The notes under the pieces: model-generated
Database searches by the model: none
Seen by the model: the letters and a program-made list of their open reading frames with translations, nothing else
What the model was told of the DNA's origin: nothing
Position numbers and translations under genes: made by a program
From: Herpetosiphon giganteus
GTDB taxonomy: Bacteria; Chloroflexota; Chloroflexia; Chloroflexales; Herpetosiphonaceae
Assembly (NCBI RefSeq): GCF_016907925.1
Contig: NZ_JAFBCZ010000007.1
Location: 186,001-250,000 of the forward strand
DNA: 64,000 nucleotides
Direction of reading: 5' to 3'
Part shown: in pieces, positions 8,567 through 64,000 of the stretch
How the letters are laid out: each line of letters opens with the position of its first letter
Position numbering within the stretch: the first letter of the stretch is position 1

Positions 8567-9163
8567 CGTCCAATCGTAGCGTACCGCGCCCAAGCGCATC
8601 GCCGCGGTAATGCCAGTACACACTAAAACTGCCAGCGCATCAAAATTAAGATAGGTACACAACAGATAGCCACATGCGCCGACAAAAGCGCAGGTCACAT
8701 ACAATTGGGTGCTGCGCTGAAACACCAAGGGAATTTCATTGCACAAAATATCGCGCAGCATGCCGCCAACCGAGGCCGTAATTACGCCCATCAAGGCGGC
8801 GATGAAGGCTGGCATTGAGGCTTCGAGACCATAGGCCACGCCAACCGCCGTAAACAAGCCCAAGCCAAAGGCATCGGGAATCATAATTGCCTTTTCGGTC
8901 AGCGCAACCCAATCGGCCTTGGCCACAAAAAACGAACCAATTGCCAATGCCAACATCAACATTGGGTAAATCGGTTGTTGCACCCAGTAGAATGGGCGAC
9001 GATCAAGCAAAATATCCCTCACTGTCCCACCGCCAAAGGTGGTCACAAACGCCACCGTATACACGCCAATTAAATCGAATGAACGGCGGCGGGCAGTAAT
9101 AATGCCTGAAATGGCAAAGGCAATCGTGGCACAAATTTCAATAATCGAGAGCAGCGTTTCCAC
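8555..9163 (-). CDS. TRIC-type (UPF0126) trimeric cation channel family membrane protein
   Basis: This 202-residue protein has about seven hydrophobic segments arranged as two related halves. Each half carries a Gly-rich turn followed by Arg-Asp: TFGGGTVRD and ASVGGMLRD, the signature of UPF0126/TRIC channels. Prokaryotic TRIC proteins are homotrimeric K+-conducting channels in the cytoplasmic membrane. The start codon is GTG (bases 9161-9163 on the opposite strand), preceded by AGAGGA four bases upstream. Confidence 0.85.
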   Translation of the reverse strand: METLLSIIEICATIAFAISGIITARRRSFDLIGVYTVAFVTTFGGGTVRDILLDRRPFYWVQQPIYPMLMLALAIGSFFVAKADWVALTEKAIMIPDAFGLGLFTAVGVAYGLEASMPAFIAALMGVITASVGGMLRDILCNEIPLVFQRSTQLYVTCAFVGACGYLLCTYLNFDALAVLVCTGITAAMRLGAVRYDWTLPI

Positions 9164-59825: not shown

Positions 59826-60012
59826 ACCCTCGAAACTGCCAGCCTCCCACTCGTGCTGGACATCGCGCCTGTACCTTACACCGATCAGGCTATCTATGCA
59901 AGTTTTAATCTTCGTTGCATAAGGCTTCAGCAACCCGCTTAACCAAGGCCCTAGCTGGCTCGCTGCTTGACGAAATAACGCGAGATTCGGTACTATCTGC
60001 AAGGAGCACACT

Positions 60013-60207
60013 ATGCCCGCTGTCGCCCTTTTTCGTCAGGATCAGCTCGAAACTGCTTACGCTGGGTTGTTGCTTAGCCCAAACAGGCCGCGCCCATACT
60101 ATCGCTTGCTTGCGCAACGCTTGCGCGAGTTGCCGCCCGATGCGTTAGCTCATAATCGATTGCCTAATCCAATTAAAGTCCTGTACAGCATTCGAAGCCT
60201 ATTGTAA
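60013..60207 (+). CDS. Small ORF of unknown function or remnant
   Basis: A 64-residue frame starting MPAVALFRQDQLETAYAGLL and containing RPYYRLLAQRLRELPPDAL. It has no recognised domain and no clear ribosome-binding site. It lies between cdaA and an alpha-E remnant in a region that looks like decaying sequence. It may be part of an older, broken gene. Confidence 0.3.
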   Translation: MPAVALFRQDQLETAYAGLLLSPNRPRPYYRLLAQRLRELPPDALAHNRLPNPIKVLYSIRSLL

Positions 60208-60402
60208 TGTATACACTGCTGATATTCGGCCAGAACGAATTGCTGAGTTCTTGTTGTTGAATGCCGAATCACTGCGATCGCTGAGATGATGGCTGATGGA
60301 CTGAGCGGCTATTTGGCGAGCATTCAACAACAATGCCAACAAATTCATGCCAACGTCTATCAGACCTTTATTCGTTATTCGGTTGAGACAGCATTGGTAT
60401 AA
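60182..60402 (+). pseudogene. Alpha-E (DUF403) domain remnant
   Basis: In frame with 60182, the translation gives AFEAYCNVYTADIRPERIAE and FLLLNAESLRSLR before a stop at 60287-60289. In the +2 shifted frame from 60283 it gives EMMADGLSGYLASIQQQ, QIHANVYQTF and a stop at 60400-60402. Both segments match, in order, the C-terminal half of alpha-E domain proteins, with the middle deleted. The N-terminal half is absent. Alpha-E proteins usually sit beside circularly permuted ATP-grasp and transglutaminase genes, none of which is here. Confidence 0.6.
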
Positions 60403-60410
60403 GGATGATC

Positions 60411-61331
60411 ATGACAGCAGCACAACAGCGCATGCTGGCGGCACTCAAAGGCTTATCGGTTGGTGAAGCCTATGGCCAGCAACTTTGGCAACAGGTGCAA
60501 ACCGGCCTTGCCGTCGCCGAGCAACCAAGCCTTTTGCCAGCACCATGGCTGTGGACAGATGCAACCCTGATGGCTTGTTCGTTGGTTGATCACTTGTGGC
60601 ATTATGGCACAGTGCATAGCGCGGCCTTGGCTGCCGATTTTGCCCTGCGCTACACGCCAATTCGCGATTATGGCACCGCCATGCACAATCTTTTGGCCAA
60701 ACCGCGCGATGGTGCGGCGGTAATGAGCGATGCCCAAAATTTGTTTGATGGCCAAGGCTCGTTTGGCGTAGGCGCGGCGATGCGGGCGGCTCCGTTGGGC
60801 CTGTTTTTTGCCGAAGCGCCGCTTAGCCAAGTTGCCCAACAAGCGCAACTTTCGGCCCTGACCACCCACACCAATCCAGAAGCAGTGGCGGGCGCGGTGG
60901 CGGTGGCAGTGGCTGGGGCAATTCTTTGGCGCGAGCGTGATCAACCGTTGCGCCAGCCCTCGGCAATCTTAAATGAAATTGTGCAGTATCTGCCAAGCAG
61001 CAGCCTTGAGCATCGCGTGGCTTTAGCTGCCGCCATGAACGATCGCCAAATGTGGCATCATATTGCCTTGCGTTTGAGTAATGGCTACCAACATAGCGCC
61101 CAAGCAATTGTGCCATGGTGTTTGTGGTGTGCTGTGCATTATCGTGATGATTATGCGGCGGCGATCGAGCAAGTGTGTGCTGCTGGCGGCAACTTTACCT
61201 CAATGGCGGCAATTGTTGGCGGGCTTTTGGCCGGAACTTTAGGCCGCGATTGTATTCCGCCGCCTTGGTTGCGCGCCCGCGAACCTTTGCCTCACTGGTT
61301 TTTGGCCAGCCTTGGGATTGAAACCGATTGA
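60411..61331 (+). CDS. ADP-ribosylglycohydrolase homologue with lost metal ligands
   Basis: This 306-residue protein follows the ARH/DraG fold from start to end, but several key positions differ from the family. WTDAT stands where WTDDT is usual. The C-terminal metal loop is AAGGNFTSMAAIVGG instead of GGDTDT-AAI-G. GEAYG stands for GDALG and FGVGAAMRAAP for GNG-AMR-AP. It is therefore probably catalytically inactive. It aligns over its whole length with the intact paralogue at 62285. AAGG fits ATG 60411 better than ATG 60405. It may bind ADP-ribose or regulate its paralogue (inference). Confidence 0.85.
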   Translation: MTAAQQRMLAALKGLSVGEAYGQQLWQQVQTGLAVAEQPSLLPAPWLWTDATLMACSLVDHLWHYGTVHSAALAADFALRYTPIRDYGTAMHNLLAKPRDGAAVMSDAQNLFDGQGSFGVGAAMRAAPLGLFFAEAPLSQVAQQAQLSALTTHTNPEAVAGAVAVAVAGAILWRERDQPLRQPSAILNEIVQYLPSSSLEHRVALAAAMNDRQMWHHIALRLSNGYQHSAQAIVPWCLWCAVHYRDDYAAAIEQVCAAGGNFTSMAAIVGGLLAGTLGRDCIPPPWLRAREPLPHWFLASLGIETD

Positions 61332-61430
61332 TTGCTTGAATGGTGGCAGTTGCTACACACTCCACCATTCGCCACGTTCCTCGCTTTCGCCGCAAATCAA
61401 CAAATGCAGCAGCAATCCATTTAATTCAAA

Positions 61431-61461
61431 AAAAGCATGGGTGATTTTTGCCCATGCTTTT
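61431..61461. terminator. Bidirectional terminator between ADP-ribosylglycohydrolase homologue and PIN-like gene
   Basis: Perfect 11-base arms AAAAGCATGGG/CCCATGCTTTT with a 9-base loop between convergent stops at 61331 (+) and 61465 (-). Confidence 0.85.
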
Positions 61462-61464
61462 GCT

Positions 61465-62187
61465 TTAATTTGGCAGTTTGTACGTAACTTTTGTATTCTC
61501 GACCTGAATAATTCCACGATTTTTTAGCTGGTTAATCAGCGCTGCTAGTTCTGGCTCGGATAGCTTATTGGCAAAGATTGTCTTGATTGTGTTACTCAGC
61601 GTTTTAATCGTTCGCGGCTTGGTATGGTTATCAGCTTGAAGGTATTTAATAATCACCTCAATCTTTTTCGGCGCGGCTGTTGGCTGAGCTTGCTTCTGTT
61701 TTGGCGGGTTTAGCGCTGGGGATGCTTTTACAGTCGGAATGTCGCTAAGCTCAATCTGTTTCGGCGAGGTTGGCGTTGGGGATGCCTGCTGTTTCGGTGG
61801 GGTTGGCTCTTGAGCTACTTTTACGGTGGCAATCTCGCTAACAGCTCGAACCCGCTTGGCTATAATCTTTTTCGTTTTGAGGTGCTGAATCAAAGGGTCG
61901 AAGCCAGTATCTTTAGAAACAATATGAAAATAGGCGTTCGGCTCTTGAGCAGCTAATTGACCAATATAAAAGGCAATATGAAAATCAAGCGCATTGTTGC
62001 CGTTGCTCGATATTTTTACGTAGCTGGCACGTTCGCCGAGCTGCTGTAACGCCACCGCAATTTCAATCGGCACTTTTGTCTGATTCGCGCCCACGAAGAT
62101 CAGCAGTCTAACATGCTCGAGATTAAGCATTTCGATCGTGGCTGGTTGCACATTTTCGTAGTCGATCAGCACGAAATTGGTTCTCAA
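61465..62187 (-). CDS. PIN-like (PIN_7/NYN-type) nuclease-domain protein with C-terminal winged-helix
   Basis: This 240-residue protein has a PIN-like domain (about 1-125): FVLIDYENVQ with the first acidic residues, LLIFVGANQTKVP, NALDFHIAFYIGQLA, and HIVSKDTGFDPLIQHL with the last acidic residues. It is most like PF18475-type PIN domains, which are predicted RNA or DNA nucleases. A Pro/Lys/Gln linker with TVKVAQEPTPPK and TVKASPALNPPK leads to a C-terminal helical domain (LSNTIKTIFANKLSEPEL, LINQLKNRGIIQV) of winged-helix type. It lies between two ADP-ribosylglycohydrolase homologues. Confidence 0.82.
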   Translation of the reverse strand: MRTNFVLIDYENVQPATIEMLNLEHVRLLIFVGANQTKVPIEIAVALQQLGERASYVKISSNGNNALDFHIAFYIGQLAAQEPNAYFHIVSKDTGFDPLIQHLKTKKIIAKRVRAVSEIATVKVAQEPTPPKQQASPTPTSPKQIELSDIPTVKASPALNPPKQKQAQPTAAPKKIEVIIKYLQADNHTKPRTIKTLSNTIKTIFANKLSEPELAALINQLKNRGIIQVENTKVTYKLPN

Positions 62188-62284
62188 ATATGCCCCCTTA
62201 GATGATCAGCAACGCTCCATGCCACGCTTGTTGCTCATTCACGTTGAAACTAGCTGCATCCTCATGATAATCGATTTGAGGCAT

Positions 62285-63211
62285 TTAACCAATGGGTTTG
62301 GCTAATTCTTCAGCAAATGCCCAGGCTGGCAAGGGTTCTCTGGCTGCGCGCCACGCGCTAGGGATGCCCTCAAGGCCCACATAACTGGCCACGATTCCCC
62401 CAACGATTGCGCAAGTTGTATCGCAATCGCCCAAGCCTTCCAACGTCAGCCAAATTGCTTGCTCAAAATTGCTTAGGCGTTGGGCGGCACACCACAAAGC
62501 AAATGGCACGGTATCTTGGGCCGAAATTTTGCTGCCATTGCCCAAATGTGTGGCAACTGTGGCAATTGGCATAGTCGAATCAAGTTGAATTGCCATGACC
62601 AAGCCCTCGGCTACTTGGCTTGCTGGAACCCATGGCTGAATCAATTGTAAAAATCTGTTTGGGCTTGGTAGCGTGGTTTGGCGCGCTTGCCATGCCAACG
62701 CCGCTGCAATCGCCACCGCAATCGCTCCGGCAATTGCTTCAGGATGTGCATGAGTAATTTCGGCTGAAGCGGCTGCTTGCTGGACAACGCTTGACAGATC
62801 AGCCGCCCAAAATGCGCCAATTGGCGCAACTCGCATTGCCCCGCCATTGCCAAACGAGCCTTGGCCTTGATGCAAACTTAGGGCTTCCTCGCGCCAATTT
62901 TTGCCGCGCTGAATACGCCCCAAAATCGCTCTGGTAGCTGGGCCATAGCCGCGCGAACGTTCATAGTGCAGGGCAAAACTTTGGGCCAACAAATCTTGAT
63001 CGATGGTTGCGGTTTGGCGTAGCACCGAAAAAACCGAAGCCGCCATTTGGCTGTCATCAGTCCAATGCCATGGGCTTTGGGGCACTTGGCGCAAATGCAC
63101 GCGTGCAGGCACTTTCGTATGGGCAAATTCAAAAAAACCACCCAATGCATCGCCTACCGATAAACCTTCGAGCGCAATTTGAGCACGATTTAGGGCGCTA
63201 TCAGAGTTCAT
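62285..63211 (-). CDS. ADP-ribosylglycohydrolase (DraG/ARH family)
   Basis: This 308-residue protein has a complete set of family motifs: GDALGGFFEF, WTDDSQMAAS, GNGGAMRVAPIG, THAHPEAIAGA, and GLGDCDTTCAIVGG, supplying the acidic residues that bind two magnesium ions. It should remove ADP-ribose from a protein, nucleic acid or small molecule. It is a paralogue of the inactive-looking protein at 60411. A PIN-like gene lies directly downstream on the same strand with a 97-base gap. Confidence 0.9.
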   Translation of the reverse strand: MNSDSALNRAQIALEGLSVGDALGGFFEFAHTKVPARVHLRQVPQSPWHWTDDSQMAASVFSVLRQTATIDQDLLAQSFALHYERSRGYGPATRAILGRIQRGKNWREEALSLHQGQGSFGNGGAMRVAPIGAFWAADLSSVVQQAAASAEITHAHPEAIAGAIAVAIAAALAWQARQTTLPSPNRFLQLIQPWVPASQVAEGLVMAIQLDSTMPIATVATHLGNGSKISAQDTVPFALWCAAQRLSNFEQAIWLTLEGLGDCDTTCAIVGGIVASYVGLEGIPSAWRAAREPLPAWAFAEELAKPIG

Positions 63212-63393
63212 TCAATCAACCTCAACTCGCTGATGCGTTTTATTTTAACCCAGGTATGGCAAATGAAAAGCATCAGTTTGGGCTGTTTTAGCTGTGACTG
63301 CGAATGTCACAGGCGCTTGCTATGCTAGGCTTGCGCTTGAATTAAGAGTTGATACAGTATTAAGCGAGTGTTTCATAGCGCAAAGGAGGCTTG

Positions 63394-63873
63394 ATGATTC
63401 CATCATCGCTTAACTCACCCCAAGTTTTCCAAAAATCCGCGAAGCGCGATGTCAAGGAAGTGCCGTTTGTCGAGCTAGCCGATGGTCGGTTGCAAGGCGT
63501 TATTTCCAGCGGCTCGGATATTCAGCGGGTCTATGTGGCCTACTTCGAGGCTCGCAGCCTCAACTTCTACTGTAGCACCAACAACAATCGCCCGTGTGGT
63601 GGCTTGCGGGGCAGCCCATGCAACCATCTGATCAATTTGCTTGGCGAGGGCATCAAGCAATTTGGCATCCCTGGCATTTTGAAATATCTGCAATCTGCCC
63701 ACGACCCAACTACCATCACCACGATTGGCGATTTTCTCAAGATCGCTGGCCATATAACCCACCAAGCGCATGGCGCAATTTTCAGCCGCTTTCTTGGCTC
63801 GCTCCAGTTGCTTGAACTTCCGCTCAGTGCATTGCCATTGCCAGAGATGGATTGGTTTGCAGGGGGCGTGTGA
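63394..63873 (+). CDS. SWIM-like zinc-finger protein
   Basis: This 159-residue protein has a Cys cluster CSTNNNRPC, then SPCNHL (about residues 52-72), giving C-x8-C-x7-C-x-H. The closing C-x-H matches a SWIM finger, though the first spacing is unusual. GISSGSDIQ-like GVISSGSDIQRVYV precedes it. AAAGGAGG four bases before ATG 63394 is the strongest ribosome-binding site in the window. A following gene overlaps by one base (TGATG), so this starts an operon that continues beyond the window. Confidence 0.65.
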   Translation: MIPSSLNSPQVFQKSAKRDVKEVPFVELADGRLQGVISSGSDIQRVYVAYFEARSLNFYCSTNNNRPCGGLRGSPCNHLINLLGEGIKQFGIPGILKYLQSAHDPTTITTIGDFLKIAGHITHQAHGAIFSRFLGSLQLLELPLSALPLPEMDWFAGGV

Positions 63874-64000
63874 TGCTTGCAGCGGAATTTCATGCCAGCA
63901 ATGAATTAATTCAAGCCATCGATCAGCTGTTGCTGACGGGCTTTACCAATCTTAATCATAGCCATCAAACCAGCTTACAACGGCTGGCTCAAGTTTATCA
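63873..64000 (+). CDS. Start of a gene coupled to the SWIM-like protein (partial)
   Basis: ATG 63873 overlaps the previous stop as TGATG. The visible 42 codons (MLAAEFHASNELIQAIDQLL, then TNLNHSHQTSLQRLAQVY) form an open helical frame that runs off the window end. The product cannot be named. Tight coupling implies a shared role with the SWIM-like protein. Confidence 0.5.
   Translation, partial: MLAAEFHASNELIQAIDQLLLTGFTNLNHSHQTSLQRLAQVY

Follow-up and report, generated by a model that had tools for sequence, protein, structure and literature searches.

The window analyzed here, a stretch of 64,000 nucleotides from Herpetosiphon giganteus, carries on its plus strand (positions 60411-61331) an intact gene for a pseudo-ADP-ribosylglycohydrolase of 306 aa, termed pARH, which has lost its metal centre and is a pseudoenzyme under purifying selection. 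We consider it probable that pARH originated as a pseudoenzyme in the stem of the genus Herpetosiphon, within a peptide-ligase operon, and that it acts by binding or scaffolding, in part independently of its operon partners.

The ATG of pARH is preceded, 5 bases upstream, by AAGGA, and a second in-frame ATG is found at position 60405. The protein scored 134.4 bits against Pfam entry PF03747 (cut-off of 26.2), over positions 2-286 of the 287 of the profile, and is thus a member of the ADP-ribosylglycohydrolase (ARH) superfamily by homology. ARH enzymes hold two metal ions by means of four aspartates (PMC7390403; PMC7050489). This four-aspartate, two-metal centre, present in the catalytic ARH1, ARH3, and DraG, is incomplete in pARH, where alanine, asparagine, and threonine replace three aspartates in all six species analyzed (D78>A, D314>N, and D316>T in the numbering of human ARH3), accompanied by T317>S and by replacement of the asparagine of the GNG motif with valine. 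The site motifs of pARH read GEAYGQQLW, WTDAT, GSFGVGAAMR, TTHTN, and GGNFTS, with the first metal aspartate and the TH motif retained. A preliminary description had reported pARH as degenerate at WTDAT, GGNFTS, GDALG, and GNG-AMR, and this was confirmed, with three of the four metal-binding aspartates missing. Judging from its sequence, pARH would have lost hydrolysis, and no catalysis is expected. The predicted structure of pARH, a model of middling confidence (pLDDT of 67.5), adopts an all-helical ARH fold that matched human ARH3 (7l9f) with a Z score of 27.0 and an rmsd of 3.1 over 280 residues at 22% identity. Hence, pARH shares with the class of human ARH3 and PF03747 the whole-length fold, the family HMM, the TH motif, and the first aspartate, but, unlike the ARH3-class enzymes, has lost the asparagine of GNG as well as three metal aspartates.

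As the preliminary description had stated, pARH faces a second ARH homologue of nearly equal length across a PIN-like protein, and the three ORFs are as described. The minus-strand ARH (positions 62285-63211; 308 aa) is of the catalytic type, with all site motifs (GDALGGFFE, WTDDS, GSFGNGGAMR, ITHAH, and GDCDT), and these bore out the claim that this copy keeps all metal residues. It scored 190 bits on PF03747 and is 39% identical to pARH. Neither protein reached the more than 337 bits needed for the DraG equivalog TIGR02662 (22.6 bits for pARH and 54.2 bits for the minus-strand ARH). We also considered that the two ARHs might be a local duplicate pair. In our tree, pARH paired with a catalytic ARH from another genus of the family, G007a (98/98), outside the clade of the minus-strand copy, which rules out a local duplication. 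The gene for G007a (L097 8422-9883) adjoins a NADAR-domain gene; NADAR proteins are tied to ADP-ribose chemistry.

We then compared six Herpetosiphon genomes, the 6.16-Mb genome containing the window and those of five congeners, using mechanical gene calls and pairwise dN/dS values calculated by the Nei-Gojobori method. pARH is present in all six species, free of stop codons and with identical altered motifs, the sole change being F/V inside GGNFTS; the metal aspartates are intact in all 27 other aligned homologues, which come from Chloroflexota and one deltaproteobacterial MAG. The dN/dS values were 0.012-0.075 for pARH, 0.05-0.07 for Alpha-E, 0.08-0.10 for the transglutaminase (see below for both genes), 0.08-0.16 for the catalytic ARH, and 0.12-0.22 for the PIN protein. 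Since the residue losses are fixed in 6/6 species and dN/dS is this low, pARH is a pseudoenzyme under selection and not a decaying gene: its catalytic residues are lost and purifying selection is kept. These values support the earlier suggestion of selection for a non-catalytic role; relaxed selection on the degenerate copy was not found, and it is instead the catalytic copy that is less constrained. The pARH branch of the tree has a long stem of 1.84 changes per column followed by short tips, as expected from one episode of change and then strong constraint. The pocket motifs showed no significant excess of conservation over the remainder of pARH (7/93 positions variable in the motifs and 25/215 elsewhere; p = 0.32). 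The catalytic ARH is the copy being lost and the dead pARH the copy retained, the former being found in four of the six species (G000, G002, G005, and G004). It is missing from G001 and G003, and in G004 (L094 10804-11730) it is interrupted by an in-frame stop. A wider search of contigs for relatives retrieved no more than three Herpetosiphon genomes plus one homologue of the catalytic type from a deltaproteobacterium, and a search of viral sequences yielded one partial relative.

In the five other Herpetosiphon species, pARH is the third of four genes, in the order circularly permuted ATP-grasp, Alpha-E, pARH, and transglutaminase, and the CP_ATPgrasp, Alpha-E, and Bact_transglu_N genes are intact in one run on the same strand. 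The spacing is tight; in G004, 2 nt separate Alpha-E from pARH, and about 12 nt separate pARH from the transglutaminase. ATP-grasp/Alpha-E/transglutaminase systems are widespread. In the statements of PMC5666114 and PMC3597751 that cite Iyer et al. 2009, this operon is a predicted system for peptide synthesis or modification, accompanied in some bacteria by Anbu. The Herpetosiphon operon shares all three core genes, their order, and their strand with the known operon but differs from it by the addition of pARH between Alpha-E and the transglutaminase. Our literature search, which did not extend to Iyer et al. 2009, retrieved no paper naming ADP-ribosylglycohydrolase, ATP-grasp, and transglutaminase together. 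Across an even sample of 400 Chloroflexota genomes, in which ARHs were found with the pARH profile, Alpha-E occurred in 114 genomes and Alpha-E together with an ARH in 31; the two were at most 10 kb apart only in the six Herpetosiphon genomes, and none of 30 other Chloroflexota loci had an ARH beside ATP-grasp, Alpha-E, or transglutaminase.

The operon is not visible in the window because it has been deleted there, its three core genes persisting only as plus-strand relics. The ATP-grasp relic (positions 60013..60150) consists of 46 codons from the start of the circularly permuted gene (78% identity in tblastn to the G004 protein over residues 1-46) and now continues into a 64-aa ORF that ends at 60207; the former promoter of the operon would lie near 59967-59996. 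Alpha-E (DUF403) is reduced to two frame-shifted fragments (60155..60399; 84-85% in tblastn), one covering residues about 192-235 and the other about 276-316, with a loss of about 125 bp in between; its former stop codon lies at 60400-60402. On the other side of pARH, blastn against the G004 region revealed 79 bp of the transglutaminase (61343..61421), comprising both gene ends, with an 888-bp deletion that joins G004 positions 9123 and 10012 at 61389/61390 of the window. As reconstructed by sequence comparison, three deletions removed the operon partners of pARH and left relics on either side of the intact gene. A search of the whole genome found no further copy of ATP-grasp or Alpha-E beyond these relics, the Alpha-E trace containing a stop, and the transglutaminase had no close copy elsewhere.

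We counted by parsimony the changes specific to the window's lineage at codons where two relatives, G004 and G005, agree. In the 120 codons of the relics, 21 changes were counted, of which 14 were nonsynonymous and 7 synonymous, a ratio in keeping with neutral drift (p = 0.31); pARH accumulated 0 nonsynonymous and 25 synonymous changes (Fisher p = 5e-7 versus the relics). Had pARH been neutral for as long as the relics appear to have been (about 44% of the branch), it should have gained about 36 nonsynonymous changes. The comparison of 14/7 with 0/25 therefore suggests that selection on pARH outlasted its partners, within the limits of small relic counts and of parsimony. The dS of pARH to the nearest species (0.32-0.36) is within the range of the flanking genes (0.20-0.42), so there is no sign, among the sampled genomes, that the intact gene was acquired by recombination, an unsampled donor being possible. 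Since selection appears to have continued after the operon was lost, at least part of the job of pARH would need none of the three partners, and we infer a function that is independent of them.

We propose that a catalytic hydrolase of the ARH family gave rise to pARH in the Herpetosiphon stem with loss of the two-metal centre, and that pARH was inserted between Alpha-E and the transglutaminase of the operon. The ARH fold would have been kept, and the former ADP-ribose cleft would hold a ligand or a protein partner, so that pARH would serve as a scaffold or sensor, with binding instead of catalysis. In the window's species, the three deletions would have taken the operon and spared pARH, and purifying selection would have gone on. 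A binding or scaffold role is the most likely one for pARH, which would work like the vertebrate pseudoenzyme ADPRHL1 (ARH2). ADPRHL1 lost the same three aspartates and its cleft is still essential (PMC7390403); like pARH, it is conserved and keeps the first aspartate, but ADPRHL1 is a heart protein, whereas pARH is bacterial, operon-borne, and of independent origin. pARH is thus a bacterial case of an ARH pseudoenzyme that repeats the residue pattern of ADPRHL1. The pARH model also gave fold matches (Z scores of 17-25) in the chloroplast Ycf2-FtsHi motor (8xks/8xqw) and in a trypanosome mitoribosome assembly (6sga/9hny); these are unrelated complexes, but ARH-fold parts in solved assemblies indicate that the fold can serve structurally. 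More tentatively, it is possible that this ARH pseudoenzyme, added to the Alpha-E peptide-ligase system and having an extra binding role independent of its partners, has a ligand through which the sensing of ADP-ribose or a nucleotide would be coupled to the modification of peptides; the extra role would explain how one lineage could shed the entire ligase operon and still retain pARH. A non-catalytic fourth member that survives alone would provide a handle on what the ATP-grasp/Alpha-E/transglutaminase system handles, and the loss of the operon with retention of pARH is a natural experiment, testable in cultured species.

A rather doubtful alternative is that pARH works solely as a structural or regulatory subunit of the machine formed by ATP-grasp, Alpha-E, and transglutaminase, and that it survives in the window's genome as a short-lived leftover or by virtue of an unseen partner. 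Its tight placement in the operon and a level of selection like that of Alpha-E in five species would fit this role, but the drifted relics, the lack of any nonsynonymous change in pARH, and a genome without other Alpha-E or ATP-grasp copies or a close transglutaminase copy argue against it. It is less likely still that pARH is an enzyme with altered chemistry, metal-free or using one metal, built on the new polar residues N261, T263, and S264: the replacement residues, some of them polar, are kept in all six species (GGN-F/V-TS) and the TH motif and first aspartate are retained, but three metal aspartates are missing and the new motif itself varies between F and V. That pARH is simply a functionless gene in decay is barely credible, because the loss of catalytic residues and the wrecked operon, which would suggest it, are met by the low dN/dS, by the lack of stops in six species, and by lineage-specific changes that are all synonymous.

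The preliminary description had instead thought it conceivable that pARH, the PIN-like nuclease, and the catalytic ARH form an ADP-ribose-linked system of RNA or DNA control, which we consider very unlikely. The three genes are adjacent in G000, G002, and G004 (where the ARH is broken), but the PIN gene is missing from two of the six species and the catalytic ARH from two, with a further one interrupted. The PIN gene (positions 61465..62187, minus strand; 240 aa; PIN7 family, PF18475) is found in G000, G001, G002, and G004 and lies outside the pARH unit, and this gene content rules it out as a conserved partner of pARH. The combinations in which PIN and the catalytic ARH occur differ, so the three genes do not form a stable set. 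pARH and PIN are moreover convergent and belong to separate transcription units, split by a 14-bp, terminator-like stem-loop (61431..61461) that is a consensus match only, such sites not being enriched in the region. Outside the genus, PIN7 and ARH genes are on different contigs or far apart. Hence, the observation of the two ARHs and the selection for a non-catalytic role stood, the nuclease context did not, and the conserved context of pARH is the ATP-grasp/Alpha-E/transglutaminase operon.

The position of the PIN gene is an exchangeable slot, occupied in G003 and G005 by an unrelated ORF of 873-880 aa. These slot ORFs (L095 8069-10690 and L093 10549-13191) are 68% identical to each other and contain domains resembling the RNA polymerase alpha-CTD and sigma-70 region 4, and their sigma-like part gives a weak, MzaA-like match in PADLOC. 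The PADLOC anti-phage models gave no match for pARH, PIN, the catalytic ARH, or P0004, and a defence system was rejected on this basis for the first three genes. Beyond the catalytic ARH, the genes for P0004, a 452-aa protein, VWA/CoxE, an AAA_5 ATPase, and DUF5682 are clustered on the same strand (window positions 63391-64000 onward; L090 9392-16408), and the first four genes of this cluster are conserved beside the locus in all six species.
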